From contig JAOTOL010001623.1 of assembly GCA_034440575.1 (NCBI GenBank), positions 1,264,501 through 1,328,500 on the forward strand: 64,000 bases of DNA. Reading direction: 5' to 3'. Both the position numbers and the translations under genes were made by a program. Within the stretch, counting starts at the first letter, position 1; each line of letters starts with the position of its first letter. Of this stretch, positions 27,301 to 61,385 are shown in pieces. The notes under the pieces are model-generated. The model had not been told where the DNA came from and searched no databases. It was given only the letters and a program-made list of their open reading frames with translations. This DNA comes from Imbricaverruca yamaguchii. Lineage: Eukaryota; Arthropoda; Thecostraca; Neoverrucidae.

Positions 27301-30300
27301 GCACAGCTTCACCAACAGCTATTCACGAGACACACACTCCGACTACACTGAGACCTGCACAGCCCCACCAGCGGCTACTCACGAGACACACACTCCGACT
27401 ACACTGAGACCTGCACAGCCCCACCAGCGGCTACTCACGGGAGAAACACCATTTGTCCTTCCTGAAGGCGCTCACCACCACGCCGATAGAGACGGCCAGC
27501 AACAGCAGTGCTCCGCAGCCCAGCGAGGCCATGGTCGTCCGGGACACCGGCCCTGCCAGCGGCACACCTGAAACGCCGCCACAGGTCACCGCCGGCGGGA
27601 CACCAGCCCTGCCAGCGGCACACCTGAAACGCCACCACAGGTCACCGCCGGCCGGGACACGAGCCCTGCCAGCGGCACACCTGAAACGCCACCACAGGTC
27701 ACCGCCGGCCGGGACACCGGCCCTGCCAGCGGCACACCTGAAACACCACCACAGGTCACCGCCGGCCGGGACACCGGCCCTGCCAGTGGCACACCCGAAA
27801 CGCCACCACAGGTCACCGCCGGCCGGGACACGGGCCCTGCCAGCGGCACACCTGAAACGCCACCACAGGTCACCGCCGGCCGGGACACCGGCCCTGCCAG
27901 CGGCACACCTGAAACGCCACCACAGGTCACCGCCGGCCGGGACACCGGCCCTGCCAGTGGCACACCTGAAACGCCACCACAGGTCACCGCCGGCCGGGAC
28001 ACCGGCCCTGCCAGCGGCACACCTGAAACGCCACCACAGGTCACCGCCGGCCGGGACACCGGCCCTGCCAGCGGCACACCTGAAACGCCACCACATGTCA
28101 CCGCCGGCCGGAACACCGGCCCTGCCAGCGGCACACCTGAAACGCCACCACAGGTCACCGCCGGCCGGGACACGGGCCCTGCCAGCGGCACACCTGAAAC
28201 GCCACCACAGGTCACCGCCGGCCGGGACACCGGCCCTGCCAGCGGCACACCTGAAACGCCACCACAGGTCACCGCCAGCCGGGACACCGGCCCTGCCAGC
28301 GGCACACCTGAAACGCCACCACAGGTCACCGCCGGCCGCCTGTAGCCGCTAGTACTAGGAACTATAACCATGGTAATACTAATGTGCAGCATATCAAAAA
28401 TAATAATAAAGATGTTACTGCCAGAAAAATTATACAATGCTTAAAAATGTAAATCATTGTTATCACAGCAATGCTACTACTTATAAGAATAATACTAACA
28501 CTATCATACAAATTATGAGGTCACTTAAAAAACGGAACAGCACTGACATTAATGGAGTGAAAATGAAGGTAATGCACTTCAATTGTCTTGTATATGCCAC
28601 TCGCAATTCCGCTGTCAAGTGTAATGTTTGCTTTTTCAACCTTCGTGATTGTCGTGGTAAACTACGGAAAATATGAAATATGTAGTGATGACCATGATGG
28701 TGCAGAATGGTTAGACTAGGGTTCACTTTAGGAAATATGCACATTGAAGTCGCCTCGGATATGATTCGGGTTACCTTGTGTGTTCACATATTATTTTGAA
28801 TCTTATGTTAAAACATGTTGGAAGAAATCAAAGCAAACAACAAGCAGAATTATACTACTTAAAAAAGTTCACAACAAAAAGACAACCTGTGATTTTACGT
28901 TGGGGCCGTCCAGTGACCCCTTCCTCCCATTTCCCCATCGCAACAGGTAGGAAACTCTGCCTCACTGCGATGGCTAGACCTGGAGGGATGTCAGTGAATT
29001 TTGGAGGGAGCGACACAGGAAAGCGACATTATTCCTAATTCGTTTTCTGAAGGGAGTATTATGGTAAATGCAGATAGGTATTCTCTGGGCACAATTGATG
29101 TTCGGACTGGCCCAATCCCGAACAAGCGTCGTCTGTCCTCATGACATGAAAGTGACATAGCTTGTTTTTAACGAGCTTATCACAGTTCTTGCGTTTTTAT
29201 GCCGCTGCCTTCCGACCTGGCTTGACCTTCGATCTATCTGTGACCACACTTTCGTCGACAAGTATTCGCTAATCGAACCTTTTGAGGCTGGGTGGCGTCC
29301 TCCGTCCTAATCTTGACCGGCGATTGTGCATAGATCTAAACTTCAGTGTGTACTAGCCTGGCCTCTGGCACTAGCAATGTTCTCCGGCTTGATTTATGAC
29401 GACAGTGCGCGTCCTGTAACGTCACACGACCTGTGCCGACGTCGTCTGGTCTGACCTTTAACGGTCAGTGTGACTCGTCGGCGGTCGGATCCTAGCTCGT
29501 TCTCCACGCTGAGTAAGAAGTCACGCTCGTCGGCGGGACTGACGGCTGTCACTCGAAGACGAGCCCGGTAGCAGCCTCCGTCAATCTCCTGTAGACACAC
29601 CGCTGGTGAGCCCAGCTGTAGACACACGGGAGTTGAGCCCAACTGTAGACACACGACGAGGTGAGCCCAGCTGTAGACACACGGCTGGTGAGCCCAACTG
29701 TAGGCTCACGGCTAGTAAGCTAAACTGTAGACACACGGCTGGTGAGCCCAACTGTAGACACACGGCTAGTAAGCTAAACTGTAGACACACGGTTAGTGAG
29801 CCCAAGTGTAGACACACGGCTGGTGAGCCCAACTGTAGACACACGGCGAGGTGAGCCCAACTGTAGACACACGGCTGGTGAGCCCAACTGTAGACACACG
29901 GGAAGTGAGCCCAACTGTAGACATACGGCGAGGTGAGCCCAACTGTAGACACACGGCTGGTGAGCCCAGCTGTAGACACACGGCTAGTAAGCTAAACTGT
30001 AGACACACGGCTGGTGAGCCCAACTGTAGACACACGGCTAGTAAGCTAAACTGTAGACACACGGTTAGTGAGCCCAAGTGTAGACACACGGCTGGTGAGC
30101 CCAACTGTAGACACACGGCGAGGTGAGCCCAACTGTAGACACACGGCTGGTGAGCCCAACTGTAGACACACGGGAGGTGAGCCCAACTGTAGACACACGG
30201 CTGGTGAGCCCAACTGTAGACACACGGTTAGTGAGCCCAACTGTAGACACACGGTTAGTGAGCCCAACTGTAGACACACGGCTGGTGAGCTCAACTGTAG

Positions 30301-33300
30301 ACACACGGCTAGTAAGCTAAACTGTAGACACACGGTTAGTGAGCCCAAGTGTAGACACACGGCTGGTGAGCCCAACTGTAGACACACGGCTAGGAAGCTC
30401 AACTGTAGACACACGGTTAGTGAGCCCAAGTGTAGACACACGGCTGGTGAGCCCAACTGTAGACACACGGGAGGTGAGCCCAAGTGTAGACACACGGTTA
30501 GTGAGCCTACTGTAGACACACGGCTAGTGAGCCCAAGTGTAGACACACGGTTAGTGAGCCTAACTGTAGACACACGGCTAGTGAGCCCAAGTGTAGACAC
30601 ACGGTTAGTGAGCCCAACTGTAGACACACGGCTGGTGAGCCCAACTGTAGACACACGACGAAGTGAGTCCAACTGTAGACACACGGCGAGGAGAGCCGAA
30701 CTGTAGACACACGGCGAGGAGAGCCCAACTGTAGACACACGGCGAGGAGAGCCCAACTGTAGACACACGGCGAGGTGAGCGCAACTGTAGACACACGGGG
30801 AGGTGAGCCCGTCTCGTCATCGGTACCCTGCGGCGCTTCACTGAGGTCACTGGGTGTGTGCGTTCTACGGCCGACACATGTGGCCGACACACAGCTGACA
30901 CACAGCCGACACACAGCCGACACGCAGCTGACACACAGCCGACACAAGCCGATACACAGCCGATACACAACTGACATGCACCCGACACACAGCCGACATA
31001 CACCCGACACACAGCCGACACACAGCCGACACACGGCCGACACAAGCCGACACACAGACGATACACAACCGACACACAACCGACGCACAGCCAACACCCA
31101 GCCGAAACCCAGCCGACATACAGCCGACACACAGCCGACACAAAACCGACACACGGCCGACACACAGCCGACACACAGCCGACACACAGCTGGCACACAG
31201 CCGATACAAAACCAACACACGGTCGACACACAGCCGACACAAAACCGACACACAACAGACCCACAGCCGACACAAAACCGACACACAGCAGACCCACGCC
31301 CGACAAAAAACCGACACACATCAGTCACGCAGTCGAAACAAACACAGCCGACACACAGCCTACACACAGCCGACACACAGCTGACACACAGCCGAGACAC
31401 AGCCGACACAAAACCGACACACAGGCGACACACAGCCGACACACAGCTGACATACAGCCGACACACAGCCGACACACAGCTGAGGTACAGCCGACATACA
31501 GCCGACACACGGCCGACACACAACCGATACACAGCCGACACACAGCCGACACACACCCGACACACACCCGACACACGGCCGACATTTGGGACACTCGCAC
31601 CTGAGGTCACGCGGCCTGACCGCTGCGTCCTCTCCCGCCATCCGTGCCGTCTAGCCGTGCTTTACGCAGCACAAGACATTTGGTGTGTGCTTAATTGATC
31701 ATTTAAGAGCCAAATGCAGAAGGATCGCTGGGAAGCACGCTCCCGAACTGTGCGCGCCCAGCATCCCTAGCATCGCTGTTGTGTGTCGTTAGCATACCCT
31801 CGTAGCACCACGGCGATAAAGGATGAAAAATAATACATGCAATCAGGATATATTCGCACGATCTAGCATATGAAACAATGCATCACAGGTCGGACAGCCA
31901 TGCAATATCGGTGTGCATACTTCTATTTTTTACCCGCCCGTCTCGGGATGGTCTGTTTACGTTCGGTTTAGGTTTTCCACAGATAGTGAAGGAAAACAAA
32001 ACGGCTCGGAGAAGTACGCCTAAATTGTTCACACGTTTTACCACTTCAGTTTGGCATGTTGTGTAAAAATGTTGAGGTTAGGTCATCTGCGGTCAAAATG
32101 ATTAATAGTTGAAGGTCGCGAATTATTGAAGTCACCTCCAGAAAAGTTCAACCAGTCTTCACGTTTTAGCGGATACAAATATTTGAATAAATATTTCAGC
32201 GTTTCCTTATCCTTATGGATGCAATGAAACCACCAGATGAATTTTTGAAAATCCCGTTTTTGATGACGTATTCGTTTTACATATTTACCCATTCCGGCTA
32301 AAATAGAATATTCTGGCTAAAGTAAGCATCTATTGTATAAGGGCAAGTTGACTTCAAGCAACGTTTTGCGGTCCGCTCTACCCATTAAAAATTTAAATCA
32401 TAGGAAATTTAATGCTCAAAATGTTGACAAATTCAAACAATACAATGTTGATTTTTGGGTGCGTAAAGATTTCAGGGCCACGGTTCATTCCGCCTTTCTT
32501 TTCTGATTTAGCACCAGCTCAACGGGAAGAACATTGTGGAGACTTTGCGCCAGACATCCGAAGCGCCTCTTACAAAGTTCAGCCTTCGATATTGGAAGGA
32601 GCAACAGCTGATCTTGTCTCGTGAATTGCTCACTCACATCGTGGCTTAATTGCAGCAATGTGCACAGTTGTATTGGCTGCTCATATTCACGTGCGCAGAT
32701 GTGCGCATACGCAAATGTATGCAAGCGCAAATGTACGTAAGCGCAAAGGTATGTATTGGCAAATGTACGTAAGCGCAGCTGTACGCATGCGCAAAAGTAC
32801 GTATGTACAAATGTACGTAAGTGCAAATGTACATAAGCGCAAAGGTACATATGCATAAATATACCCTCATTGTCTCATACGCACGTTTGCTCTTGCATAA
32901 TCTTAGGTTTGTTTGCAATTGTCCATACATGCGTTTATGTTTACGTACATTTGGTCCTAAATACATTTGCGCATACGCACATTTGCTCTTACGTACATTT
33001 GCGCTTACGTACATTTGCGCTTACGTACATTTGCGCTTACGTACATTTGTGCTTACGTACATTTGCGCTTACGTACATTTGGCATGCGTACATATGCACT
33101 TGCCTAAAATTGTCATAAGTACATCTGCTCTTACGCGAATTTACTTACGTGCATTTGCGCACGTACATCTGCCATACGTGCATTTACTTTACATGCATGT
33201 GTCCGGTTACCGCTTTTGCGCTTGCGTACATGTGCAAGTACGTACACTTACGCATACGTATATTTACGCGAGCGTACATTTCCGCATACGCACTTTTACG

Positions 33301-36300
33301 AATACGTACATTTACGCATACGTGTATTTGCGCATACGTACATTTGAGTATATGCACTTTTGCGCATACGTGCATTTGCGCTTACGTACTTTTGCGCTTA
33401 CGTATATTTACACTCACGTACATTTGCTCCGGTACTTTTGCGATATATACGTTTGTTCTTCCGTAGATCTGCCATACGTACATTTGTCCTTGCGTAAATT
33501 TGTTATACAATCCTTTCAATCACCATGGTCATGACTGGTATGCTGGACACAGGCTGACAACTAGAAGCGTCAGCGTGATGACCAGTGTTGAGGACTGTGC
33601 GTACGAAACATTGTGTCTTGAAGCATGGAAGGCGGGAATTATACAAGCAGATGCTTAAATATGAAGCATAATATCACAAATAGCTGGGAAGATTAAGTTC
33701 ACGACCAGAGTGGCAAATTCCGTCCGGTCCACAGGCAGCTGAACTGAGCATGCTGACCATCGCTAAGCGTCGCCAAAGTGACCGGCAACAGGTAGCACCT
33801 TGAACACAGCGCTGGAGACGCCAGTCGGACACTGACCTGGCGGATCTGGTCGGCCCTGTAGCGGCCCCGGCTGCGACCGGCCAGCAGTCGCAGGCCGGCC
33901 CACTCCCAGAAAACAGTGGCCGGCGCCGGGTCAGAGCAGAAGTCCAGCTCCAGAACAGCCTCGTCACCGGCGACCGCCGTCGGCGCCCCACGTCGGCCGG
34001 CAGCGTCGTCATCAGGCAGGATCTGAGGCCGCCCTGTGACCAGCAGCGTCATTAGGCAGGATCTGCGGCGGCCCTGTGACCAGCAGCGTCATCAGGCAGG
34101 ATCTGAGGCCGCCCTGTGACCAGCAGCGTCATCAGGCAGGATCTGAGGCCGCCCTGTGACCAGCAGCGTCATCAGGCAGGATCTGCGGCAGCCCTGTGAC
34201 CAGCAGCGTCGTCATCAGGCAGGATCTGAGGCCGCCCTGTGACCAGCAGCGTCATCAGGCAGGATCTGGGGCGGCCTTGTGACCGGCAGCGTCATCAGGC
34301 AGGATCTGCGGCGGTCTTGTGACCGGCAGCGTCATCAGGCAGGATCTGGGGCGGCCTTGTGACCAGCAGCGTCATCAGGCAGGATCTGGGGCGGCCTTGT
34401 GACCAGCAGCGTCATCAGGCAGGATCTGGGACGGCCTTGTGACCAGCAGCGTCATCAGGCAGGATCTGCGGCGGCCTTGTGACCGGCAGCGTCATCAGGC
34501 AGGATCTGGGACGGCCTTGTGACCAGCAGCGTCATCAGGGAGGATCTGCGGCGGCCTTGTGACCGGCAGCGTCATCAGGCAGGATCTGGGGCGGCCTTGT
34601 GACCAGCAGCGTCATCAGGCAGGATCTGGGACGGCCTTGTGACCAGCAGCGTCATCAGGCAGGATCTGGGGCGGCCTTGTGACCAGCAGCGTCATCAGGC
34701 AGGATCTGGGACGGCCTTGTGACCAGCAGCGTCATTAGGCAGGATCTGCGGCAGCCTTGTGAGTAGCAGAGTTTTCAGGCAGGATCTGGGGCGGCCCTGC
34801 AACCAGCAGTTTTCAGACAGGATCTACAGCGGCCCTGTGACCAGCAGAGTTTTCAGGCAGGATCTGGGGCGGCCCTGTAACCAGCAGAGCTTTCAGGCAA
34901 GATCTACAGCGGCCCTGTGACCAGCAGAGTCGTCAGGCAGGATCTGGGGCGGCCCTGCAACCAACAGCACTCGCCAGTGCCGGGCAAGCTGTGGCGCCCT
35001 GGCAACCGTCACTGTCACGCAACATGAAATGCCCCCTGGAACCGCCCAGTATCGCCCAATCACATGCAACTGTGCAACCTGCAACCTGCAACTGTGAATG
35101 TCGCAAATCTCAGTCGACCCTGCAACTGTGAATGTCGCACAATCACATGTGCCCCTGAAACTGTGAATGTCGTACATGCAGTGACCCTGAAGGAAAAATG
35201 GTTGGGGGGGGGTGCAACGATTTTATGTTCATTCATTCCATACAGCTTCCATGGCCATACTGCTAGTTTCAGATGAGTCGAGTGGTGTAGTCAGTTTTGA
35301 TCACCACATTCGAAAACTCACCTTTTACAAGTCGTGTTATGCAAAATGCTTAGCATGTTACATATTGAAAACGATTTTCGACAACCCCATTATATATAAT
35401 TATATAATTGCTCATTTAAGAGCCAAGTGCAGAGGGATCGCCGGGAAGCACGCTCCCGTACTGTACACAGACACAACCGATACACAGGCGACACAATGCG
35501 GCTTCAATGTGGCTGCGTTTTGTACCTCAGTTTTGGCTGCAGTTTTATAGATGTTTTACCTGCTTCCAGTTTTCCTTTTGCATGTGTCGCCAATAATTGT
35601 ACAACAGCTAAATTGCAAAGTAAAGTAGCATGTTAAAAAGGTGAGTAGAATGCACCATATTTTCCGATCAGCTACTTTAACCCGCGCCGTCTCTTCGGTC
35701 AGATCCTCACGCCCGGTCTCGGGGGGGGGGGGGCAGATAGTAACCCCCTTCTACAATCCAAACTAAGCGTCCCACGAAAACGAAAGAGGTGTCATCGGAA
35801 AGAGCTCGACGAGTAGGGTCCAGATCCACCCCTGAAACAAATTTTTCCCAAAAGTGACATCACTAGGGGTGCTATATTTTTCACGACTTTTCACGACTTA
35901 CATTATGTTTTTGGCTCTGGGGAGTTCATTTTTGGGGATATTTGAAAAACAAAACTATTTGGAGTCAGAAAAAGATAGCAAAATCGACCAGGGCCATACA
36001 AATCTTTGGACCCCCAAAATAATTGTTTATGTTGTGAAATTTCAAAATTTTGAGTTTTCAAGTGTTCTTAAATTTTCCTTTTCTAATGGGTAGAGCAGAC
36101 CGGGAGAACGTTGTTGGAAGCCAACTTACGCTAATACAAAATGCTTACTTTAGCCAGAATCTTATATTTGAACTGCAATAGGCAAATATGCAAACTATAT
36201 ATGTAGTCAAAAGGGAAAAAAATCATCTCGTACGTTTTGTTGCATCCATAGATAAGCAAACGCTGGAAGTTCCCTTAAAATATCTGTATCCGTTAAAGCG

Positions 36301-39300
36301 TGACGACTGGTTGAACTATTTTGGAGGTGACCTCACTTGACGTTGACTAACTCATTGACTCTAGATGACCTGACTTCAAAATTTTGAAACAGCATGCCAA
36401 ATTGATGTGGGGAAAATGTATGCCAAATTTTGGCGCGCTGCCGCGCGTCATTCGTTCAATATCTGCGAAAAACCTGAAGGGGGCGGGCGATTGAAGACCC
36501 CGAGACCGGACTGGTTATCTTCTGTGAAGGCTAGTGCAACGAAATACGCAGGGTGGATGGCCACGGTAGTGAACTCTTTTGTATGCAAATTTCGTGACCT
36601 TAGGTCAATATATTAAAGATCAAATGAGGTCACAATAACAACAAAAAATGGTGTTGCGTGGCTTCGCTTGCCATTGTTATGGATCGCTGCGATTGTGTTT
36701 AAATGTTCGAAAATTAGCATTAATGATGTTTTAGACATTACTAATGATGCAATACAGATTCCAGATCCGCCATTTGACCTCAGGTCACCTATATAAGAGC
36801 ACTTTATCAGGTCATTACCTGCTCCAGCTACCCGAATCGGTCTGCCCACCCAATTGCTACATTGGGCGGCTCGGCACAATCGGCTTCGCAAAGAAAGGAG
36901 TGAAATGCATGAATAAAGTCTGGAAAAGCTTAGGCACACAATGACAAACAGTAGATTTCAGGATGTATAGGCAGTAACATGCAAAGTGACATCAATCGCA
37001 TGACAGTCAGTTGCATTTATGACAGCATTCCAGTTGACCAAGTTTGGTTCAATTAACCTGTCATGAACTTGACCTGACTTGACCTCGGCGACCTAAAATG
37101 ACTTTTAAATTATATAGCATAACAATATGCATGAAGCAAGTCGCTAGTGTTGTCAAGAACCCGTTCCTTTTGTCAATATACGGGAAGCGATTCAGCACCG
37201 AATTTTGTGGTCTGGCACTGCTAATTTGATTTTAGTTTATTCACCCCTAACTTGACAAATTTTCGGTCGATTTTAGTTTTTCTTACTTTAAACAACGCCC
37301 CGGTCATTACTAAGTAGGTAGGAAAAATGACGTATATCGGCCGGTACAATATGGAGTTATGTACGAAACATCGGAGGGGCGGGCGGATTTCGCCTTCCAC
37401 TCCTTCAGGGCGTGTGTAGCAACAACAATATACATCAAACAAGTCGCTAGTGTTACCATGAACATTTCCTTTTTGCCAATATACGAGAAGCGCATCAGCA
37501 CCGATATTTGTTGTCTGGCGCTGATAATTTTGTTTTACTTTAACGAACCCTAGCTGGAAAAATATTCGGTCGATTTTCGTCTTTCTTACTTGAAGCAACG
37601 CGCCGGTCATTGCTATGATTGCTAAGCAGGTACACAAACAATAACGTATATCGGCGGGTAAAATCTGGAGTTATCTACGAAAAACCGGAGGGGTGGGCGG
37701 ATTTCACCCCCACTCCAGGGCGCGTGTTAAAAGCGTACAACTCCAGCAATAACGGTTATTTCACGGAGAGTTATAAAATACACCATTATACCTATGAATA
37801 GACTCATGGTAAGGCAGTTAACCCTCTCCGGTTTCTCCTGTCAGATCCTTACACCAAGCTCAGCGGCTGGATTATTGTTATATCCACCCGTCTAGCTTCC
37901 AAATTATGCAGTGTACGAACGTGAACCGGATATTATCCGAAAGCCCTCGATAATACGGTTAGAAAATGACCTCACCATTAATTCTGCACTAATCATGAAA
38001 CTAAAAAAAATCATCTAAAATAATTGACTTTTCAAACGCAGTTCATATCTCCATTCCTGGCACAGGTACCGAGTGAAAACACACACCATTCGATTGCAGA
38101 AATTAATTACGCAGAACTTATTACACAGTCACATTGTACCACCATTGGACAAAATTGGCAGTCAGCTTAGCTCATCTCAAACACAAATACAAGAAAGACG
38201 TGGTGCAAACGCTGCGAACTTTGAATCATGTATTATGCCTCATTTTACTATATTCTCACATGTAAAAGCTCCAAAACTTTTAAAAAGTATATAACAGTTA
38301 GCACACGTTATCTTGACCTAGCCTCTGGTTACCTGACGGAGGCCAATCAACTTGGATAAGAAACTTCTCATATTTATGCATTCATACCAAGGAAAACCTG
38401 CGGTTCGGGCATGCACAATACAAAAATAGGAAAATTGGTCCAAATTGGCCGTAACCGGAAGTCACTAACCTGACTGCACACAAATTTGAGACATACGTTT
38501 TGTAGGCTCTATCCGATTGTACCTACGTGGCAAATTTAGCTTGAAAATCTTCTTATTTGGTTCAGTTATCGAGCCTGAAAAAAGCTTGGACAGGCCCTCT
38601 TTGACCTCAGCCAGGTCAATGGTCGTGCACGATCTGAGGTTGAAACTTTTACACCAGAAGCACAAACGCATGAAGGGAAAGGTACTGAAGATTTCGCAGC
38701 GTTGTGCTCGTACGTCTAGGAACGTGTGTTGTGTAACTGTGTCAATGTAAGGCGTCCAGGCTGTGTTAATTATTGCTGTAAAACATATTTTAACTTGCCT
38801 GTGTTAGGCTTCTGACGACCAACACCAGAGATTGCCCCTGAGCGGGCAATGGCAGGGATGAAGTGTGGTAGTACTAGCTGTAAATGCCTCGTACTCTCTG
38901 TCTGACTTTAATCTGAGAGAAGTGTTATCCTCCCCTGCCCAATTTCTCAAGCGATTCTCATCGGGACGGGAATAAATTGTTCAGCAGGAGTGAATGGGTC
39001 TGCGCCGTTGATTTACTTCTTGCTCGGTTTCATTCACTTGGAAGTTGGCTGGCTGTCAATAAGTTCGACTGGGGCTGGTCGGTGGGGGTCGGGGGCGCAG
39101 TGCTGCTCTTCCTGCCGACTCCCTGCATTCCTAGGCGTTTATCTTGCCTGAAAACCACTCAAGACGTTAACAGCTGCTGCATACCGCATACATCACTTCT
39201 GCTTATTACTCGAGCGAAGCCTCTCACGGGGTCGCCCGAAGTAGTGTGGCCTGTGTGGACGGAAACGCATGGGTGGACGGTGCCAACTTGGAAGTCCCAA

Positions 39301-42300
39301 CAGCTGATCGGCGAACAACGCTGTGTGCGGTGACAACACATCACCACTTCCAAGTGAGCTCCAACCTTTGTTGCGATTCGTGCGGATCGCGCCCATTACA
39401 ACTTAGCAAGCAAACACAAACACAGGATATATTAGTTGGCGATGACATTGCTCACGATAAATGGTGCTTTTCATTCAGTGCATGTCTTCAGGGCATGTCT
39501 TTCAAGAAGTTTTCCCGTGATGTCAATGCGTCATCAAAGTTTCTGTTGTGAGTGTACAAGTTTGTGTTGTCTCAGCTGCGGGAAAGTGATAGGGAGAAGC
39601 AGAGAGATAGAGAGAGTGAGAGAGAGAGAGAGACGCGAGGGAGAGAGAGAGAGGGAGAGAGATGGAGAGAGTGCCAGCTATATATTGGCGTGGAACAGGG
39701 GATAGGGAACTGGGTGGCAGATGGTCAAGGGAAAGACGGAAAGAGGGACTGGAATGAGGGGAAGGGAAGGGGGACTGGAAGGAGGGGAGGGGAAGGACTG
39801 AAATGAGGAGAATGGAAGATGGGAAGGGAAGGAGGAAAGGAAGGAGGATTGAACACACATTCATCTGGTCAATTCGGGCTTCGTCAGAAGTTCTTATATT
39901 TGGCATTGTTGCCGCCACTAAGGATGGAGGCTGCCACGCGGCTGACCCGTATATGCCTTACCATATTACCCGTGCGCGGCGAGGTAAAGTTCACGCGAGT
40001 GGCACACGGCAATTATGCGCGTGACGTGCGTAAACGACTCATGCAAAACTGGCAGTGTGCGGCCGCCCTGACCCTGTTTACATGCATCGTGCGCATGGAT
40101 CCCGACATCGATCCCGACATCGATCCCGACAGTGTCCGACAGTCAGTCCAACATGAATCGCACGTCTTCGTCTGTGTGCACCCCTGCCCGCGCTGCATCA
40201 GAGAGTTTGCCACCGGTTCGGCTCAACAGCGACACCCGCCGAGCGGTGTCACCCTGTGTCACGGTCACAGGACAGTACACGGCCACAGCACATCACACCG
40301 ACATCCATACACACCGCATACCGACGGGCATATCGACACCGCCGCCGGGCCCACGGGCACTCACCGATCACACCGAGCTGGACGGGCCCGGCCCGCGCGT
40401 ACCGACACCGTCCGTTGATGGTGTTGGCGGCCACGCACAGGTACCGGCCGCCGCTGACGTAGGTGACGTTCTCGAGGCGGAGGCGACCTCCGGTGGCGAC
40501 CAGCAGCGCGGGCCCGTCGGAGCCGAGGGCGCCGCCGGCCGGCACGTACAGCCAGCGGTAGGAGGGCGTCGGCCGGCCGTCACCCTCGCACAGCAGCTCG
40601 GTGGAGTTGTGCAGACCGACCGTCACGTGGGTGCCGGGCTCCAGGCGCGAGATGCGTGGCGGGTCTGCGGAGGCACGTGTCCCGGTCACGTGACTGGCCC
40701 GTACAACGTGAACAGGTCACGTGACTGCCCAGTGCAACGTGTAATACAGATATTTTAATGAAACTTTCAGCGTTTGCTTACCTTTACGGATGCAACAAAA
40801 CGTACGAGTTGAATTTTTATCTCTTTTTTTCGTTTTTGACTACATATAAATTTTGCGTATTTGCCATATTGCAGTTCAAACACAGGATTTTGGCTAAAGT
40901 AAACATTTTTTATTAGGGCAAGTTGACTTCCAACAATATTTATCGGTCTGCTCTACCCATTGGAGAAGGAAAATTAAAGAAAACTTGAAAACTCAAGACC
41001 AAGACATTGAAATTAAAAAAAATTGGGGGGGGGGGGGCAAAAAACAAATTATGGCTCTGGTCGATTTCGCTGTCCTTTTCTCATTCCAAATACTTTTTTT
41101 CTTCATATATCCCCAAAATGAACTTCCCAGAGTAAAAAACATAATGCAAGTCGTGCAAAGTCGTGAAAATCTAGCCCCCTGGTGACGTCACTTTTGGGGA
41201 AAAAATGTTGGGGGTGGACCCGGACCCTACTCGTCAAGCGCTTTTCGTTTTCGTGCGATGCTTAGTTTGGATTTTAGAGGGAGGTCTTCAACCGCCCCAG
41301 CCCGGAGACAGGGTGGGAGGATTGGATAGGAAAGACGGCGTGGGTTAGGGTGAGGGCAAATGGACATGTTTCCTCCCACAACCCCTCCCCGCGGTACCAT
41401 CCTCTGCCAGTGACTATATCTTAATGGAAGCATGACATAAATCAGTGCACGCTTCAACATGCAGACATGCACTAAGATGTAAATCACATTTTAACGGTCC
41501 TCACGACCGACGCTATTATAGTGTCAGGATTAAAAACATGCCCAATTCAAACGCGACCAGCTTTGCCGTCGGTTCCGCTTCCGGTGTGCAGTACTCGCAT
41601 TTGACGTCGAGCCGGAGCCGGGCCGGCTGGCTGGTGCCGATGGTGTTTGTGGCGAGACACGAGTAGGTGCCGGCGTGCCGCCTGGTGACGGGCCGCAGCT
41701 GCAGCGAGCCGGTCGGCACGGACAGCGGGACGGCGGCGGCGCCGCGACCGGCGAACGTCCACCGCACCACCGCCGGAGGGTTGGCGTCCACCGCACAGCG
41801 CAGCACCACCGCGTCCACCGACTCCTCCAGCTGCCGCCGCGGCAGCCCTCAGCAGCCGCACGCGCGGCGCGTCTGCGGTACAGGTGCACACCTGAGTGAC
41901 CTTGGGGCAGTGCAGATGCAGACTGATCTGCGGCGTAAATGCACACATAAACCTCGGGGCGGCACAGATGCAGACTGGTCATCGAGTACAGGTACACACC
42001 TGAACCTGGGGGAGTACATATACAGACTGATCTGCGGCATAAGTACCCACCTGAACCTCGGAGCAGCACAGATGAATTGAGGATAAGGCTCGCGAACTTG
42101 TACCCGATTCTCAACTCTCCAAACTAAACCTGGGACAGGCTAGTCCTGACCCAAAGTAAGTTCGTCCTCAAGGTACATAAGTAACGTGATGAAGTATGCA
42201 AATATCCTTGGGCACTAAAGAAGCAGCATGACTTACAAAACAAATAACGCAGCAAAATAAACACACAACTTCGTCTCACAGCTGGACGATATGTCATGGC

Positions 42301-54300: not shown

Positions 54301-57300
54301 AGTATGTTGAGAAACGGGGAGGTGTTCTCTTTTATGCTATGTCGGAACAAATCTAGGAGGCATAAAGCGAACCCTCGAGATTGTGCGGGCTAAGGGATGT
54401 TCGGTTTAGGATTTTAGCTGGACAATGACGTCGGCACCGATGCATCGCTCCCTCTGATTGGCTGTATAATTGATTACATTCTCCTTGTTTGGGTGAACCG
54501 TCTTCTATAGAAGCTGGACACATGTGTGATTAATTTGAATGAGAAACATTGAAGTATTTTCTTGTTCTGTTTCTTGCTAATTATGCCCTCAAATCAAATG
54601 TGACTCACTTCTCGATGTCTGGATTAGAGAAGATATCATGTTTTGGTTGAACCCGCGCCGTCTTTCCGGTCAGATCCTCACACCCCGTCTCTGGGGGCGG
54701 GGGCGGATAGTAACCCCCTCTAAAATCCAAACTAAGCGTCGCACGTAAACGTAAGAGATGTCATTTCAAAGCGCTCGACGAGTAGGGTCCGGATCCACCC
54801 CCGAAAACAACTTCCTCCTAAAAGTGACGTCACCAGGGGGCTACATTTTCACGACTTTTCACGACTTACATTACTTACATGTTTTTGGCTCTGGGGAGTT
54901 CATTTTGTGGATATTTGAGAAAAAACAAGAATTACTTGAAAGTAAGAAAAGGATAGCGAAATCGACCGATGCCATAAAAATGTTTGGCCCCCAAAAATAA
55001 AAAATAAAATTCAAATTCAAAACATTGAGTTTTCGAGTTTTCTTAAACTTTCCTCTTCTAATGGGTAGAGCAGACCGATAAACGTTGTTGGAAGTCAACT
55101 TGCCCTAATACAAAATGCTTACTTTAGCCAGAATCTTCGATTTGAACTGCAATACGCAAATATGCAAAATTTATATGTAGTCAAAAACGGAAAAAAACAT
55201 TCCTCTCGTACGTTTTGTTGCATCCCTAAAGATAAGTAAACGCTGAAAGTTGCATTCAAATATCTGTATCCGTTAAAGTGTGACGACAGGCTGAACTTTT
55301 TTGGGAGGTGACCTCACTTGACCTTGACTAACTCGTTGACCCTAGGTAACCTGACATCAAAATGTTGACACAACATGCCAAATTGATGTGGGAAAAGGTA
55401 TGCCAAATTTTGGTGCGCTGCCTGCGCCGTTCGTTCACTATCCTCGAAAAACCTTCAAACGTGGGGTGGTTGAAGACCCCTCCACGAGACGGGACGGGTT
55501 AATGTAAGCCACAAGATCGCTCGCTAAACATTATTTTTTACATTTCATCAAGCTGTAAAGCTGTCTATGACTCATGTCTCAGTATATGTGACAAGACATA
55601 CACGACTTATGAAGATTCACTTTTGGTGGCCTTGAGGAAAATATCGATGTTTTCGATGTAAACGCCGCTACTGGTGTCTATGTTGCCGCGGCACGCATAT
55701 TCCGCTGATGGTGACCGTTACTATAAGCCTAGTTTTGTACATGCCAGTTTTATTGTAAGACCCGAAGCTTACGAAGCGTACAACCCGACATTGCACAGAA
55801 TGTCATCTCTGTACTTCATGTTACTATCTGTGCCAATGTTTGGAGTCGTCTGTACCTTCATTTCACCTATGTATTGACATTTGGCTTCGGTGACGATATC
55901 CAGCCAGTGTCCCGACATTTGACCTCTGTGTCAAAATACAACCATGCATTGACATTTGGTTTCGACAACGACATCCAGCCAGTGTGCCAACATTTGACCT
56001 CTGTGTCAAAATGCAACGCTGTATTGACATTTGGCTTCGATAACGATATTCAGCCAGTGTGCCAACATTTGACCTCTGTGTCAAAATGCAACGCTGTAGT
56101 GACATTTGGCTTCGATAACGACATCCAGCCAGTGTGCCGACATTTGACCTCTGCACCAAAATGAAGCCATTGCGGTGTCACCAACGGTCCATCTCTGTGC
56201 GGAGATGTGACCATGACGTCGAAAGTTGACCTCTGCACTGACCTCTGACCACCAGTCGAGCCGGCCGAGAGCTGAGCGCGTCCTGCGTCTGGAAGGTGCT
56301 GGCCGTCACCTGACACGACCAGAGGCCGTGATCGTACCGGGGGTCGGCGCCGACCACGCGCAGCGAACAGTCGCCGCGGTCGGTCGGCCGCGCCCATTCG
56401 TACTTGGAATTCTCCATACCGACCGGCTGAAAATGGACCGCAGCTGTCACTGGTGTCGGCATCGGTCAACGGCTGTCGACCTCTGTCTGGTCAACAGGCC
56501 AGACGTCAGCACCGGTCCACGGCGGCCGACCTCTGTCTGGTCAACTGGTCAGACGTCAGCACCGGTCCACAGTTGTGTACCTCTGTCTGGTCAACTGGTC
56601 AGACGTCAGCACCGGTCCACAGTTGTGTACCTCTGTCTTGTCAACTGGTCAGACGTCAGCACCGGTCCACAGTTGTGTACCTCTGTCTGGTCAACTGGTC
56701 AGACGTCAGCACCGGTCCACAGTTGTGTACCTCTGTCTGGTCAACTGGTCAGACGTCAGCACCGGTCCACAGTTGTGTACCTCTGTCTGGTCAACTGGTC
56801 AGACGTCAGCACCGGTCCACAGTTGTGTACCTCTGTCTGGTCAACTGGTCAGACGTCAGCACCGGTCCACAGTTGTGTACCTCTGTCTGGTCAACTGGTC
56901 AGACGTCAGCACCGGTCCACAGTTGTGTACCTCTGTCTGGTCAACTGGTCAGACGTCAGCACCGGTCCACAGTTGTGTACCTCTGTCTGGTCAACTGGTC
57001 AGACGTCAGCACCGGTCCACAGTTGTGTACCTCTGTCTGGTCAACTGGTCAGACGTCAGCACCGGTCCACAGTTGTGTACCTCTGTCTGGTCAACTGGTC
57101 AGACGTCAGCACCGGTCCACAGTTGTGTACCTCTGTCTGGTCAACTGGTCAGACGTCAGCACCGGTCCACAGTTGTGTACCTCTGTCTGGTCTGTCTGGT
57201 CAACTGGTCAGACGTCAAGCACCGGTCCACAGTTGTGTACCTCTGTCTGGTCAACTGGTCAGACGTCAGCACCGGTCCACAGTTGTGTACCTCTGTCTGG

Positions 57301-60300: not shown

Positions 60301-60993
60301 GGAGGAGGAGGAGGAGGAGGAGGGGAGGAGGAGGAGGAGGAGGAGGAGGAGGAGGAGGGAGGAGGAGGAGGAGGAGGAGGAGGAGGAGGAGGGAGGAGGA
60401 GGAGGAGGAGGAGGAGGGAGGAGGAGGAGGAGGAGGAGGAGGGAGGAGGAGGAGGAGGAGGAGGAGGAGGAGGAGGAGGAGGAGGAGGAGGAGGAGGAGG
60501 AGGAGGAGGAGGAGGAGGAGGAGGAGGAGGAGGAGGGAGGAGGAGGGAGGAGGGAGGAGGAGGAGGAGGAGGAGGAGGAGGAGGAGGAGGAGGGGAGGAG
60601 GAGGAGGAGGAGGAGGAGGAGGAGGAGGAGGAGGGAGGAGGAGGAGGAGGAGGAGGAGGAGGAGGAGGAGGAGGGAGGAGGAGGAGGAGGGAGGAGGAGG
60701 AGGAGGAGGAGGAGGAGGAGGAGGAGGAGGAGGAGGAGGAGGAGGAGGAGGACAATGTTCAGGCGTCATGACTGAGTGGACCGTGACGTCAAGTGGTCGT
60801 GACGAAAGTGACGACGGCCGTGACGGCTGAGTTCATGGCACAGGTGCACTGACAGCATCACTCACGAGTCCGTCCTTCTGCCAGGAGCACTGGCCCGCCT
60901 TGCCCAGTATCTGGCAACCCAGTACGGCGACATCTCCAGCGTTGACCTCCGTGTAGCCGGGCTCCTGACGAAAACTCTGCAGCGGCCACACCA
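17964..60993 (-). CDS. Five-Ig-domain transmembrane adhesion receptor, 11 exons, nephrin/Kirre-like
   Basis: The exons run from 60993 down to 17964. They join in matching phase with GT-AG junctions, apart from one GC donor, and encode about 616 residues. In order: Ig1 (about 8-103), Ig2 (105-225), Ig3 (226-316), Ig4 (317-416), Ig5 (417-526), a transmembrane helix (about 540-562) and a cytoplasmic tail to 616. Ig1, Ig2 and Ig5 are split by an intron; Ig3 and Ig4 are single exons; domain borders are phase 1. The tail has a Tyr-Ser-Thr-Val sequence (Y594), which fits a YxxPhi sorting motif, and ends Thr-Thr-Val, a class I PDZ ligand. From family knowledge, such proteins act in cell-cell recognition at the plasma membrane. 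Nephrin/Kirre/SYG-2 is my best family guess; CD22-like or Sidestep-like are alternatives. No signal-peptide exon is certain. Exon Ig3 has a frame problem. Confidence 0.85.
18222..18371. repeat. (TA)n microsatellite
   Basis: About 70 bp of pure TA (18299-18371) preceded by impure TA/AAATA. It lies in the intron before the last exon. Confidence 0.96.
18667..19488 (-). mobile_element. TTAA-flanked MITE, copy 2 (inverted)
   Basis: The reverse complement matches copy 1 from AGTCTTTCCGGC through AAACTAAGTGCC and CAAGGTCAAGTGAGGTCAC to CCGAGACGGCGGGAC. Bordered by TTAT (18663-18666) and TTAA (19489-19492). It lies in the intron between exons 10 and 11. Confidence 0.7.
20210..20770. repeat. Minisatellite flush with the exon 10 donor
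   Basis: The unit has CACGCGACTGACTGTATAGC, CTGCATGG and, in longer units, GCAGCATTCCCGC. Two unit types (about 27 and 43 bp) alternate. The array begins about 12 bp past the GTGAGT donor of the 34-nt exon. Confidence 0.93.
20786..20819 (-). CDS. Exon 10: 34-nt exon in the cytoplasmic tail
   Basis: A polypyrimidine tract (CCTCCTCGTTTGCAG) precedes 34 nt that end in GACCG|GTGAGTTGG. It enters in phase 1 and leaves in phase 2, exactly what is needed to join the transmembrane exon to the last exon. It encodes [10 protein letters not shown] plus split codons. It is short, so the support is the two strong splice sites and the phase match rather than homology. Confidence 0.62.
21940..22345. repeat. 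Degenerate repeat of about 55 bp, 7-8 copies
   Basis: Units carry ATTACACATACACTCCGAC, ATTAATGCATC and CTTAGCTGCCC in that order. Followed by a (CA)n tract at 22355-22420. Confidence 0.88.
22420..22499. repeat. 56-bp minisatellite, left remnant
   Basis: One and a half units of the same repeat that continues at 26235. They were separated from the main array by the hAT-like insertion. Confidence 0.9.
22500..26234 (-). mobile_element. hAT-like DNA transposon, 3.7 kb, with 8-bp target duplication
   Basis: The ends are TAGGGTGTGTC (left) and, on the opposite strand, TAGGATGTGTC (right). They head inverted repeats of about 300 bp at 22500-22805 and 25940-26234 that share GTGAAATTATCGTGCAGATC and the segment around CCGGGCGCCCGGC. 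CTGCACAG flanks it on both sides (22492-22499 and 26235-26242). Because the target is a known tandem unit, the single CTGCACAG of the empty site is certain. An 8-bp duplication and TARGG-type ends fit hAT. It carries a broken transposase on the minus strand. Confidence 0.85.
23211..25385 (-). pseudogene. Decayed transposase of the hAT-like element
   Basis: Three frames are needed to read one protein. The first stretch runs 25385 to about 25050 ([14 protein letters not shown]), the second to about 24460 (a Cys-rich patch with [13 protein letters not shown], then YFDGRKDD), the third to about 24255 ([14 protein letters not shown]) and the fourth to 23211 ([51 protein letters not shown]). Acidic residues in FDGRKDD, GCDGT and the ANEL region are candidate catalytic positions, but I cannot assign them. 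The order of blocks is like proteins seen in many arthropod genomes. At least three frameshifts, so it is not active. Confidence 0.75.
26235..27440. repeat. 56-bp minisatellite carrying copies of the exon 9 donor, about 21 copies
   Basis: On the transcribed (minus) strand each unit contains TCCCGTGAGTAGCCGCTGG, the exact exon 9 donor plus the intron start, followed by GGTCTCAGTGTAGTCGGAGT. The array begins directly at the real donor (27438). Confidence 0.95.
27439..27567 (-). CDS. Exon 9: transmembrane helix
   Basis: The acceptor is GCGTTTCAG|GTG and the donor is TCTCCC|GTGAGTAG. The exon is 129 bp and phase 1 at both ends. It encodes a short juxtamembrane linker ([11 protein letters not shown]), then a hydrophobic helix of about 22 residues ([20 protein letters not shown]), then a basic stop-transfer RKDKW. 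This gives type I topology with the Ig domains outside. Both edges of this exon are copied into adjacent arrays: the acceptor in the 57-bp array and the donor in the 56-bp array. Confidence 0.88.
27568..28338. repeat. 57-bp minisatellite carrying copies of the exon 9 acceptor, about 14 copies
   Basis: On the minus strand each unit contains GGTGGCGTTTCAG and then GTGTGCCGCTGGCAGGGC, the acceptor and first ~30 bp of exon 9. The period is divisible by three, so the exon frame stays open through the array as a 19-residue repeat ([19 protein letters not shown]). The unit next to the exon lacks one C (near 27596). Confidence 0.96.
28345..29455. other. Intron sequence, no feature recognised
   Basis: AT-rich sequence with short open frames between exons 8 and 9 of the Ig gene. 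Nothing supportable. Confidence 0.5.
29456..29588 (-). CDS. Exon 8: second half of Ig5
   Basis: The acceptor is GTGTGTCTACAG|GAG and the donor is AAAG|GTCAGACC. The 133-bp exon enters in phase 0, as the preceding exon needs, and leaves in phase 1. It encodes [14 protein letters not shown] and then [14 protein letters not shown]. The usual F-strand Cys is absent (Leu-Leu-Ser-Val in its place); the available Cys is in the E-strand (GGCYR), so any disulphide in this domain is non-standard. Confidence 0.85.
29590..30810. repeat. 27-bp minisatellite carrying copies of the exon 8 acceptor, about 44 copies
   Basis: On the minus strand the unit is CTCACCAGCCGTGTGTCTACAG then TTGGG split across units; GTGTGTCTACAG is the exon 8 acceptor. 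The array abuts the exon. Variants of the 4 bases after ACACGG (CTGG, CTAG, TTAG, CGAG, GAGG) define subtypes arranged in blocks, for example a block of about 150 bp seen at 29765-29915 and again at 30045-30190. Confidence 0.96.
30880..31590. repeat. CACAGCCGACA repeat
   Basis: A 10-11 bp repeat with insertions. It is in the same intron as the 27-bp array and separated from it by about 70 bp of unique sequence. Confidence 0.94.
31695..31752 (+). repeat. Dispersed 56-bp repeat, copy 1
   Basis: It shares CATTTAAGAGCCAARTGCAG and GGGAAGCACGCTCCCG with 35405-35465. The class is unknown. Confidence 0.65.
31933..32512 (-). mobile_element. TTAA-type MITE, copy 3 (inverted, truncated)
   Basis: It starts CCCGCCCGTCTCGGG after TTTA and follows the reverse of copy 1 through GAAGTCACCTCCAGAAAAG and CAGCGTTTCCTTATCC. 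It loses similarity near 32512, so the other end is missing. Confidence 0.65.
32690..33500. repeat. 16-bp repeat in head-to-head orientation
   Basis: From 32690 to about 32860 the unit reads ACGTAAGCGCAAATGT. From about 32930 to 33500 it reads ACATTTGCGCTTACGT, its reverse complement. The central 70 bp is not repeat-like. The best-conserved copies are at 32990-33080. Confidence 0.93.
33837..34033 (-). CDS. Exon 7: first half of Ig5
   Basis: The acceptor is CTGGTCACAG|GGC and the donor is CGCCAG|GTCAGTG. The 197-bp exon enters in phase 1 and leaves in phase 0. It encodes [12 protein letters not shown], then [20 protein letters not shown], then [11 protein letters not shown] second possible acceptor (CCTCAG|ATCC) lies 10 bp inside but would change the phase. 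The first 25-30 bp of the exon recur in each unit of the adjoining 40-bp array. Confidence 0.85.
34034..34965. repeat. 40-bp minisatellite carrying copies of the exon 7 acceptor, about 22 copies
   Basis: On the minus strand each unit reads GCTGCTGGTCACAG then GGC, then CAGATCCTGCCTGATGACG: the acceptor plus the first ~27 bp of exon 7. The array starts at the exon boundary and decays toward 34965. Confidence 0.96.
35405..35465 (+). repeat. Dispersed 56-bp repeat, copy 2
   Basis: Second copy of the repeat at 31695-31752, about 88% alike by eye. Confidence 0.6.
35681..36514 (+). mobile_element. TTAA-flanked MITE, copy 4 (full length)
   Basis: TTAA (35677-35680), then CCCGCGCCGTCTC and a G run, through the shared interior (AAACTAAGCGTCCCACGAAAAC, read in parts) to GAGACCGGACTGG and TTAT (36515-36518). 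834 bp, close in length to copy 1. Confidence 0.72.
36520..37120. other. Intron sequence, no feature recognised
   Basis: Lies in the large intron between exons 6 and 7. AT-rich with a few TGACCT half-sites. No array or coding signal. Confidence 0.45.
37126..37735. repeat. Two tandem copies of an approximately 300-bp unit
   Basis: AACAATATGCATGAAGCAAG at 37126 and AACAATATACATCAAACAAG at 37427 start two copies that share AGTCGCTAGTGTT, CAGCACCGA, CGTATATCGG and GGAGGGGYGGGCGGATTTC. Divergence is 15-20% by eye. Confidence 0.8.
37740..39585. other. Intron sequence, no feature recognised
   Basis: Short open frames on both strands with no domain. I see nothing else in this stretch between exons 6 and 7. 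Confidence 0.4.
39590..39850. repeat. (GA)n and GGGGAAGGA purine tract
   Basis: AGAGAGAG-rich sequence up to 39675, then purine-rich GGAA/GGGGA repeats to 39850. Confidence 0.85.
40365..40664 (-). CDS. Exon 6: Ig4
   Basis: The acceptor is CCTCCGCAG|ACCC and the donor is ATCG|GTGAGTG. The exon is exactly 300 bp and phase 1 at both ends, so it is a complete one-exon Ig domain. It shows [15 protein letters not shown], then [20 protein letters not shown], then [15 protein letters not shown] with both Cys and the Trp. The fourth Ig has the I-set look (L-R-L-E-N-V, then Y-x-C-x-A-x-N). Confidence 0.9.
40746..41343 (-). mobile_element. TTAA-type MITE, copy 5 (inverted, truncated)
   Basis: The right end is at GACGGCGTGGG|TTAG; the interior matches copy 1 in reverse (CCCGGACCCTACTC, read back). 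It is cut off at about 40746 inside the element, where the short intron before exon 6 resumes. Confidence 0.68.
41599..41872 (-). CDS. Exon 5: Ig3, with a frame conflict and a GC donor
   Basis: The strong acceptor TACCGCAG|ACG gives the linker YAPRVRLL in the expected phase. The Ig frame downstream ([19 protein letters not shown], then GTYSCLATN) is then offset by one base, because 274 bp is one more than the phases allow. A weaker acceptor, GCTGCTGAG|GGC, would start the exon at 41847 and keep the frame (249 bp), but loses the A-strand. The donor is AAAT|GCGAGT, a GC-AG type; it is required because the next exon completes the Tyr codon of KYPPRI. Either an indel lies between 41815 and 41850 or the inner acceptor is used. 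Confidence 0.75.
41874..42075. repeat. Degenerate ~58-bp repeat at the exon 5 acceptor
   Basis: Three or four diverged units on the minus strand contain TGTGTGCATTTACGCCGCAG or similar, comparable with the true acceptor GTGCACCTGTACCGCAG. Confidence 0.75.
42387..42608 (-). CDS. Exon 4: second half of Ig2
   Basis: The acceptor is GTGCGGCAG|GCGAG and the donor is CTGT|GTGAGTG. The exon is 222 bp and phase 1 at both ends. An acceptor at CAACAG 30 bp further in would break the frame, so the outer one was chosen. It encodes [11 protein letters not shown] and [11 protein letters not shown] with the F-strand Cys, then DTIVRLDLL. The last acceptor-proximal bases are repeated in the 57-bp array that follows on the plus strand. 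Confidence 0.85.
42590..42985. repeat. 57-bp minisatellite carrying copies of the exon 4 acceptor, about 7 copies
   Basis: On the minus strand the unit contains CCCGTGCGGCAG followed by GCGAGACTGACCTGAC, which is the exon 4 acceptor plus the first 16 bp of the exon. The copies nearest the exon match best. Confidence 0.94.
43859..44002 (-). CDS. Exon 3: first half of Ig2
   Basis: The acceptor is GGCCCGCAG|TGG and the donor is ATCG|GTGAGTG. The exon is 144 bp and phase 1 at both ends. It begins VEPKPPQV, the usual inter-Ig linker, and contains [17 protein letters not shown] with the B-strand Cys and core Trp. The 12.2-kb intron before it holds the LINE, SINE, foldback element, one MITE and several arrays. 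Confidence 0.88.
44010..44340. repeat. 7-bp AGGTCAC repeat at the exon 3 acceptor
   Basis: AGGTCAC in tandem with ATGTCAC and AGATCAC variants, beginning about 10 bp upstream of the exon 3 acceptor. On the transcript it gives GTGACCT repeats in place of a normal polypyrimidine tract. Confidence 0.92.
44655..44890. repeat. Degenerate repeat of about 40 bp, 6 copies
   Basis: Units share GCCAGACAGAATACTGTTGTGTGCC with variants (read in pieces of 12-15 bp). Confidence 0.82.
45000..46570. other. Intron sequence with a diverged repeat
   Basis: Four diverged units starting CGGCTCATCTACGTCCGA lie at about 45636, 45700, 45785 and 45848. The rest holds no coding or repeat signal that I can support. 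Confidence 0.5.
46573..46740 (+). repeat. tRNA-derived SINE
   Basis: An A box (TAGCTTAGGGG) and a B box (GGTTCGAGTCT) are spaced as in a tRNA, then a tRNA-unrelated body (GCGACGCTACATGACTC) and an A-rich tail (AAAATCAATAACCAACC). The anticodon loop is 8 nt, so it is not a working tRNA. Confidence 0.7.
46790..48510 (-). pseudogene. Non-LTR retrotransposon (LINE) remnant: RT, thumb and RNase H
   Basis: Reading from 48.3 kb downward on the minus strand: [15 protein letters not shown] (RT fingers), SDITVAFDE (motif A, normally DITAAFD), [22 protein letters not shown] (motif B, PQGS-like), [11 protein letters not shown] (motif C, where F-A-D-D is expected), a thumb [17 protein letters not shown] near 47.5 kb, and an RNase H part ([33 protein letters not shown]) at 46.8-47.0 kb. 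It is broken by stops and frameshifts. RNase H after RT places it with I/LOA/R1-like lines rather than RTE. Confidence 0.8.
48511..49165. other. No gene recognised
   Basis: A short (GTT)n lies at 48555-48572. AGCTTTTAGGAAGCATTGTGA occurs in two places (47802 and 48582, read in parts), possibly copied from the LINE flank. Nothing else. Confidence 0.45.
49170..50150. repeat. 38-bp minisatellite, about 27 copies
   Basis: The unit is GTCCCGCTCCTGATACCAAG then GTCTGAGCGCAGTCAGTC, with 34-bp versions lacking AGTC. A run of about 5 units at 49310-49470 is repeated at 49500-49650, a higher-order duplication. Confidence 0.96.
51195..51920. other. Spacer of the foldback element
   Basis: Unique sequence with no domain-bearing open frame. 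A short duplicated phrase, CAAAACYACGCRCCGTCGTATRCTTCA, occurs at 51775 and 51803. Confidence 0.5.
51925..52205. mobile_element. Palindromic MITE-like insert inside the foldback element
   Basis: ATTGGCGTCACAAATAGCT at 51937-51955 is matched by AGCTATTTGTGACGCCAAT at 52165-52183, with further inverted similarity inward (CAGGTTGGGC / GCCCAGCCTG). It sits in the spacer between the two arms. Confidence 0.65.
53310..54640. other. No gene recognised; short 12-bp repeat
   Basis: GCATCTCCTGGG and GTATCTCCTGGG in tandem at 54055-54150 give a CCCAGGAGAT-rich minus strand. No coding signal elsewhere in this intron stretch. Confidence 0.6.
54651..55498 (+). mobile_element. TTAA-flanked MITE, copy 6 (full length)
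   Basis: TTGA (54647-54650), CCCGCGCCGTCTTTCCGG, the shared interior, then CCACGAGACGGGACGGG and TTAA (55499-55502). 848 bp. It has the best-preserved 3' end of the six. Confidence 0.75.
55503..55865. other. No feature recognised
   Basis: Short AT-rich intron piece; nothing supportable. Confidence 0.5.
55866..56160. repeat. 75-bp minisatellite, 4 copies
   Basis: Units begin TTGACATTTGGCTTCG and contain CAGCCAGTGTGCCAACATTT and TGTGTCAAAATGCAACG. Open in frame as a 25-residue repeat on both strands because 75 is divisible by three. Confidence 0.93.
56243..56426 (-). CDS. Exon 2: second half of Ig1
   Basis: The acceptor is CATTTTCAG|CCGG and the donor is AGAG|GTCAGTG. The 184-bp exon enters in phase 0, matching the exon before it, and leaves in phase 1. 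It encodes KYEWARP, then GDCSLRVV, then [11 protein letters not shown], which contains the F-strand Cys, and ends in a typical G-strand (ARLVVR). The D-x-G-x-W-x-C pattern is diagnostic of an Ig domain. Confidence 0.88.
56459..58610. repeat. 50-bp minisatellite, about 43 copies
   Basis: The unit is ACCTCTGTCTGGTCAACTGG then TCAGACGTCAGCACCGGTCC and ACAGTTGTGT. The 23 or so copies at 56530-57640 are almost identical; those at 57660-58610 are a diverged subtype (GTTAGCCGTC, GGGGTCATCTAGTCAGTC). Three overlapping frames are open (up to 492 codons) because 50 is not divisible by three and no stop falls in the 150-bp superunit. Confidence 0.97.
58615..60200. other. Intron sequence with a small TTTGACCTGGTC repeat
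   Basis: At 59366-59545 there are about nine diverged copies of a 19-20 bp unit (TTTAATTTGACCTGGTC). The rest contains no recognisable gene. Confidence 0.6.
60207..60752. repeat. (GGA)n tract, about 546 bp
   Basis: Almost uninterrupted GGA triplets with occasional single-base slips that shift the phase (GGGA, GGGGA). It reads as TCC repeats in the sense of the Ig gene and lies 110 bp past the exon 1 donor. Open frames of poly-Glu, poly-Gly and poly-Arg are artefacts. Confidence 0.98.
60866..60993 (-). CDS. Exon 1 of the visible chain: first half of Ig1
   Basis: The acceptor is TGTGTTGCAG|TGG and the donor is CTC|GTGAGTG. The exon is 128 bp, entering in phase 1 and leaving in phase 0. It encodes the B-strand Cys (in LGCQI) and the core Trp (in CSWQKDG) of an Ig V/I-set domain. 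The frame stays open upstream to a Met at 61078, through a hydrophobic stretch that could act as a signal peptide if transcription starts there. That stretch overlaps a tandem repeat, so I prefer a separate upstream exon that is not visible in this window. Confidence 0.8.
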
Positions 60994-61009
60994 CTGCAAC
61001 ACAAGTAAG

Positions 61010-61385
61010 CCACCACTGAAGACGGCTTAAACTCACCACCGCAACATACAACTCACCACTGCAACAAGCAACCAACACTGGAACAGTCTCCTCACCACTA
61101 CAACAAGCATCTCACCACTGCAACATACAGCTCACCACTGCAACAGGCATTTCACTGCTGTAACATAAACTCACCACTGCAACAAGCAACCAACACTGGA
61201 ACAGTCTCCTCACCACTACAACAAGCATCTCACCACTGCAACATACAGCTCACCACTGCAACAGGCATTTCACTGCTGCAACATACAGCTAACCACTGCA
61301 ACATACAGCTCATTATTGCAACACGCAGCAGCTTATCACTGAAGCATACAGTTTGTCATTGCAGCATGCACCTCACCACTGCAGC
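61010..61385. repeat. ~20-bp repeat carrying copies of the exon 1 acceptor
   Basis: On the minus strand the unit reads GTATGTTGCAGTGGTGAGCT; the exon 1 acceptor is TGTGTTGCAG|TGGTG. About 15 units in two length classes, and a ~125-bp block is duplicated (61055-61140 and 61170-61260). Confidence 0.92.

Follow-up and report, generated by a model that had tools for sequence, protein, structure and literature searches.

Minisatellites whose repeated unit carries a splice site together with part of the neighbouring exon have been called 'mirages' in the Adh3, troponin C and globin genes (BflGb6 and BflGb9) of amphioxus, and PGBD5 is similar (relevant passages of PMC3087553 and PMC3902484). According to the passages of PMC3087553 that deal with them, the units measure 10-72 bp in Adh3 and 150-160 bp in the globins, either a 5′ or a 3′ boundary is spanned, AG or GT occurs in many copies, and the results suggest regular splicing. 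Here we describe what are very probably mirages in the barnacle Imbricaverruca yamaguchii, that is, minisatellites begun as tandem duplications over exon-intron junctions at which position decides for the exon-proximal site. They were found in a stretch of 64,000 nucleotides of contig JAOTOL010001623.1 (the window), part of an assembly of 767 Mb in 1430 contigs, where homology revealed a rst/Kirre adhesion gene on the minus strand, which extends from about 60993 to 20786 or beyond. An earlier note on this DNA, which had recognised amplified splice junctions in the gene, held that no named process described them; the amphioxus mirages are the same structure.

As in amphioxus, minisatellite copies extend across an acceptor or donor and part of the exon, unrelated genes are hit, and AG or GT is kept in many copies. 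The barnacle differs in belonging to another phylum and in having several such arrays in one gene and at about 7% of sampled junctions. Human segmental-duplication genes are also modified by internal tandem repeats, and the portion of PMC2812944 concerned with them describes minisatellite units of about 30 bp that can alter exon-intron structure, also at boundaries; unlike the barnacle arrays, these belong to recent human paralogues and alter exon or intron length. In the parts consulted, the paper on amphioxus huntingtin (PMC2206037) mentions tandem repeats and no mirages, and two barnacle genome papers (PMC8270832 and PMC8917513) discuss repeat content without the words 'tandem' and 'satellite' in their main texts. 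Searches of an open-licence library for barnacle repeats and minisatellites brought up no report of junction-spanning arrays, and across all searches of that library mirages turned up for a few amphioxus genes only.

Arrays across the junctions of the rst/Kirre gene

Tandem Repeats Finder (TRF) arrays with a period of 7 or more covered 31% of the window and about 34-36% of the introns of the gene, and 6.6% of the bases in the eight exons that had been placed at that stage. The splice dinucleotide lay inside a TRF array at 6 of the 20 junctions, namely the acceptors of exons 4, 7, 8 and 9 and the donors of exons 3 and 9. The arrays at and near the junctions were as follows, in the order of transcription.

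61032..61383, minus strand: degenerate 20-bp array upstream of exon 1, with the motif TGTTGCAGTGGTG recurring toward the junction
56455-58582: 50-bp array near the exon 2 acceptor, about 28 bp from it
43790..43883, minus strand: 32-bp array of about 3 copies across the exon 3 donor; PALIRWFIG is encoded by the functional copy
42590..42964, minus strand: 57-bp array of 6.6 copies across the exon 4 acceptor and the coding sequence for GETDLT
41878..42074, minus strand: weak 52/104-bp array that stops 6 bp short of the exon 5 acceptor
34007..34968, minus strand: 40-bp array of 24 copies across the exon 7 acceptor and the coding sequence for GRPQIL
29589..30810, minus strand: 27-bp array of 45 copies that stops exactly at the AG of the exon 8 acceptor, GTCTACAG
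27539..28338, minus strand: 57-bp array of 14 copies across the exon 9 acceptor
26235..27439, minus strand: 56-bp array of 21.5 copies across the exon 9 donor, GTGAGTAG
20190-20776: 28/41-bp array that starts about 8 bp beyond the exon 10 donor

At four of the six junctions the splice signal was copied together with 14-27 exonic bases: 19 at exon 4, 27 at exon 7, 25 at the exon 3 donor and 14 at the exon 9 acceptor (counted from the site preferred below), while a single exonic base was included at the exon 9 donor and none at exon 8. Donors and acceptors were both affected, in the window as well as in the genes sampled elsewhere. Conservation of the splice letters within the arrays was mixed, being high for the exon 8 motif and for the exon 9 donor, where GT was intact in all 22 aligned copies, and low at exon 4 and for the AG of exon 7; both decoys of the exon 3 donor array were without GT. 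A further array end was located 9 bp from the exon 3 acceptor.

The TRF arrays thus bore out the earlier note for the acceptors of exons 4, 7, 8 and 9 and the exon 9 donor, and its list proved incomplete, the exon 3 donor having been overlooked. For exons 1 and 5, which it had also listed, degenerate copies were present, those at exon 1 being seen by eye to continue past the TRF array toward the junction, and the TRF arrays ended 39 bp and 6 bp before the junctions. The acceptor that it had named for exon 9, GCGTTTCAG, was replaced in our model by CTGGCAG/GGCCGG (the slash marks the junction), 15 bp downstream and still within the unit. This is the more likely site, since five residues absent from both barnacle relatives then drop out.

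The peptides PALIRWFIG, GETDLT and GRPQIL encoded within the units have the counterparts PAIIRWFVG, GEEDLT and GPPQIV in Pollicipes. The units at exons 3, 4 and 7 therefore hold conserved coding sequence, which indicates that the repeats were derived from the junction and not the junction from a pre-existing array; the exon 8 array contains no coding base and says nothing on origin. When the units were compared with one another, 14 of the 15 pairs were matched by at least 4 of 60 shuffles, and one pair (exon 3 donor and exon 7 acceptor) scored above all 60. Junction amplification has apparently occurred repeatedly and independently within the gene, as the earlier note had proposed.

Junction-spanning arrays in three further gene families

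The same structure was sought at other genes of the assembly, using 131 exons without duplicates that were taken from Pfam matches of myosin head (best 30 of 72), protein tyrosine phosphatase (best 30 of 100, plus ranks 31-41) and kinesin (ranks 14-73 of 126). Kinesin ranks 1-13 were excluded to avoid the longest matches, and selection was by rank with open-frame lengths visible; 17 of the 131 exons had a stop inside the match and were retained. Of 262 junctions 237 were kept, the rest falling below the matrix-score cut.

Seventeen of the 237 predicted junctions (7.2%, confidence interval 4.2-11.2) were crossed by an array that took in three or more exonic bases, so that amplification of junctions extends to other genes of the genome. 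An earlier set of 219 junctions gave 18 by a looser count and 16 by a stricter one, and a 120-exon set from which exons with an internal stop had been removed gave 14 of 196. Of the 18 arrays of the looser count, 12 contained one or more canonical decoys and had a mean context identity of at least 0.8. Coding sequence was again included: in one kinesin array the acceptor was repeated along with the VDLAGSE motif (VSKISLVDLAGSE), a second kinesin array, at a donor, repeated ITVKQMRVARADS, and a phosphatase donor array copied the coding end ...GHEKRK.

Decoy splice sites

The extra copies were scored with a generic splice matrix in 24 arrays (the 18 sampled ones and the six of the window). AG or GT was kept in 167 of 225 decoys, hence in many but not all copies, and 3 of the 24 arrays had no canonical decoy. 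The true site was not always stronger than its decoys, being first or tied in 11 of 21 arrays and outscored by a decoy in 10. Neither was a constraint of frame on unit length observed, multiples of 3 accounting for 9 of 24 units, about the chance rate; use of the nearest canonical decoy would keep the phase in 7 of 21 arrays and break the frame in the other 14. Since neither strength nor frame reliably marks the true site, it is presumably chosen by position. Exon definition is a known principle able to select a site by position, and it is probably through this that position acts here.

Array ends at exon borders

TRF arrays made up 18.2% of 40 kb of random genome, and 43 of 14,375 bases in exon interiors. 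A null model based on coverage was tried on the 219-junction set and pointed to depletion, not excess, with 16 junctions in arrays against about 34 expected, or 18 by the looser count against 16.5% (P = 0.0005). It was set aside because array length inflates coverage, whereas each functional junction represents a single original site; for those who prefer it, it weighs against preferred seeding. In the window, too, 6 of 20 junctions in arrays was no excess over the 36% intron coverage (P = 0.65); by array ends, the window junctions do show an excess over expectation.

The replacement measure was the number of array ends per non-array base, with one unit counted per array. The rate was 0.69 per non-array kb beyond 80 bp from junctions (90 events) and 0.70 in random genome (22 blocks), and it reached 2.36 over the 40 intronic bases nearest the exon (20 events) and 1.85 over the 45 exonic ones adjoining the junction (18 events). 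In control sequence the rate followed local GC, being 0.34 per kb next to AT-rich sequence and about 7 times higher, 2.57 per kb, next to GC-rich sequence, and GC was 61% in exons and the adjoining 40 intronic bases against 51% further out. From -45 to +40 of the 237 junctions 34 array ends were counted against 14.1 under a flat expectation (P = 5e-6) and 22.0 under a GC-matched one (P = 0.01), and the 17 spanning arrays compared with 8.8 under the flat expectation (P = 0.009), these and all other P values of the border tests being given without correction for the different versions of the analysis. When the GC window was moved by 0, 20 or 40 bp, the 120-exon set gave 33 array ends against 20.4-20.7 (P = 0.006-0.008) and a spanning expectation of 11.7-12.0 (P = 0.13-0.16 for 16 arrays and 0.05-0.06 for 18). 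A modest border preference is compatible with these figures, and GC accounts for a large part of the raw excess.

Competing explanations

We propose that a mirage would start when a segment that includes an exon-intron junction is duplicated in tandem within a genome rich in minisatellites, such as that of this barnacle. Each duplication would leave one intact junction beside the exon and push the extra copies into the intron, and growth of the array would be tolerated for that reason; repeat turnover would then add and homogenise the intronic copies. Splicing would persist because position, through exon definition acting on short exons flanked by long introns, singles out the exon-proximal site, and not because of any inactivity of the decoys. 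That arrays are scarce in exon interiors fits the other suggestion of the earlier note, tolerance only of arrays that keep a working junction. Several points weigh against this proposal: the junctions outside the window were predicted from Pfam match edges and a generic weight matrix drawn from general knowledge, well-matching canonical decoys were missing in 6 of the 18 sampled arrays, use of the exon-proximal site is itself a prediction from sequence, and the 17 spanning arrays were no excess over the GC-matched expectation of 13.0 (P = 0.17). By this last result nothing special to junctions is required for arrays to span them. It also bears on the idea that tandem duplication has true hot spots at exon borders, owing for example to transcription-coupled breaks or junction-specific sequence, which we regard as possible but rather doubtful. 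The excess of array ends over both expectations speaks for hot spots, as does an array end within -45 to +40 at 11 of 20 junctions of the window, which was picked for this very feature; array ends follow GC, however, and exon edges are GC-rich. The suggestion of the earlier note that borders are preferred seeds accordingly held against the flat null for array ends and spanning arrays alike, shrank after GC matching, and is weakly supported.

It is improbable that the arrays are put to use through alternative splicing at distal copies, giving proteins of variable length. The many decoys with an intact dinucleotide would permit it, and the exon 9 acceptor array is open along its full length in the frame of exon 9, but units are multiples of 3 at nearly the chance rate, the first canonical decoy mostly shifts the frame, and the proteins of Pollicipes and Amphibalanus align at the proximal site. 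Still less probable, to the point of being very unlikely, is the birth of the introns from coding minisatellites, a route of intron gain by tandem duplication that has been proposed for amphioxus globins (passages of PMC3087553). The exon 9 donor array weakly resembles the far end of the intron in which it lies (the score is reached by 2 of 200 shuffles), whereas the other five of the six window arrays show no such resemblance (34 to 177 of 200 shuffles), and five arrays that were checked occupy 15-41% of their intron. Comparison of the six window arrays with the opposite intron end did not reveal a new intron bounded by duplicated copies. The barnacle arrays are like the Rogers model, in which introns are gained by tandem genomic duplication, in that splice signals are copied by tandem duplication, and unlike it in that the copies lie inside an existing intron with no sign of a new one. 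Duplication over a junction, with the proximal site selected by position, is thus the explanation that we prefer.

Gene and exon models

Ten exons were predicted from homology to the Pollicipes and Amphibalanus proteins, splice motifs and compatible phases. The spliced translation, in which exon 5 was entered in two pieces joined over a frame break, was searched against the 8000 candidate proteins with most shared words; it matched best the irregular chiasm C-roughest-like protein of Pollicipes pollicipes (47% identity) and next a Kirre-like protein of Amphibalanus amphitrite (42%), which are 60% identical to each other. The eight remaining matches were from insects and other crustaceans (25-37%). 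Judged by this one gene, the DNA would most likely be assigned to a barnacle or near thecostracan that falls outside the Pollicipes-Amphibalanus pair, or else to one that evolves fast.

60866..60993, minus strand: exon 1, first half of Ig domain 1; acceptor ambiguous, TGTTGCAG/TGGTG or CTGCAG/AGTTTT
56243..56426, minus strand: exon 2, second half of Ig domain 1, 67-70% identical to both barnacle relatives
43859..44002, minus strand: exon 3
42387..42608, minus strand: exon 4
41600..41872, minus strand: exon 5, with one internal frame break near the exon start
40365..40664, minus strand: exon 6, acceptor without a nearby array
33837..34033, minus strand: exon 7
29456..29588, minus strand: exon 8
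27439..27552, minus strand: exon 9, transmembrane; the acceptor of the earlier note would put its start at 27567
20786..20819, minus strand: exon 10, coding for GGFKPSDMD

The exon 5 donor is probably of the GC type (AAAT/GCGAGT), judging from phase and homology. The frame break in this exon is either an assembly error or a real lesion, which the sequence cannot tell apart. Exon 6 gave a single match against the assembly, and no second haplotype was seen.

Other elements

Intron 1 of the rst/Kirre gene holds a GGA trinucleotide array of 546 bp (60207-60752). Two arrays with a 153-bp unit by TRF consensus lie in opposite orientation on either side of about 1 kb (50663-51196 and 52261-53246) and resemble the tandem-repeat ends of a fold-back DNA transposon. 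In intron 9, two long non-repetitive open reading frames (ORFs) on the minus strand (23211-25278) probably form a mobile element; the ORF of 357 aa has 33 relatives, mostly unnamed, among them two named ones from Mnemiopsis leidyi. In the sampled genes, one myosin head match of 1878 bp lies in a single open frame, unlike the 71 others, which are shorter, and is possibly a retrocopy or foreign sequence.

Implications

The occurrence of mirages at about 7% of sampled junctions in a crustacean suggests that they may form in minisatellite-rich genomes generally. Gene finders may choose the wrong copy in such genomes, which matters for annotation, and the many near-identical competing splice sites could serve for tests of exon definition and of intron gain. 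If, as we hold to be less probable, exon borders in the barnacle lineage are genuine hot spots, thousands of junctions would carry arrays of intact decoy sites, and nature would thereby offer an experiment on a genome-wide scale in how one site among identical copies is selected by the spliceosome.

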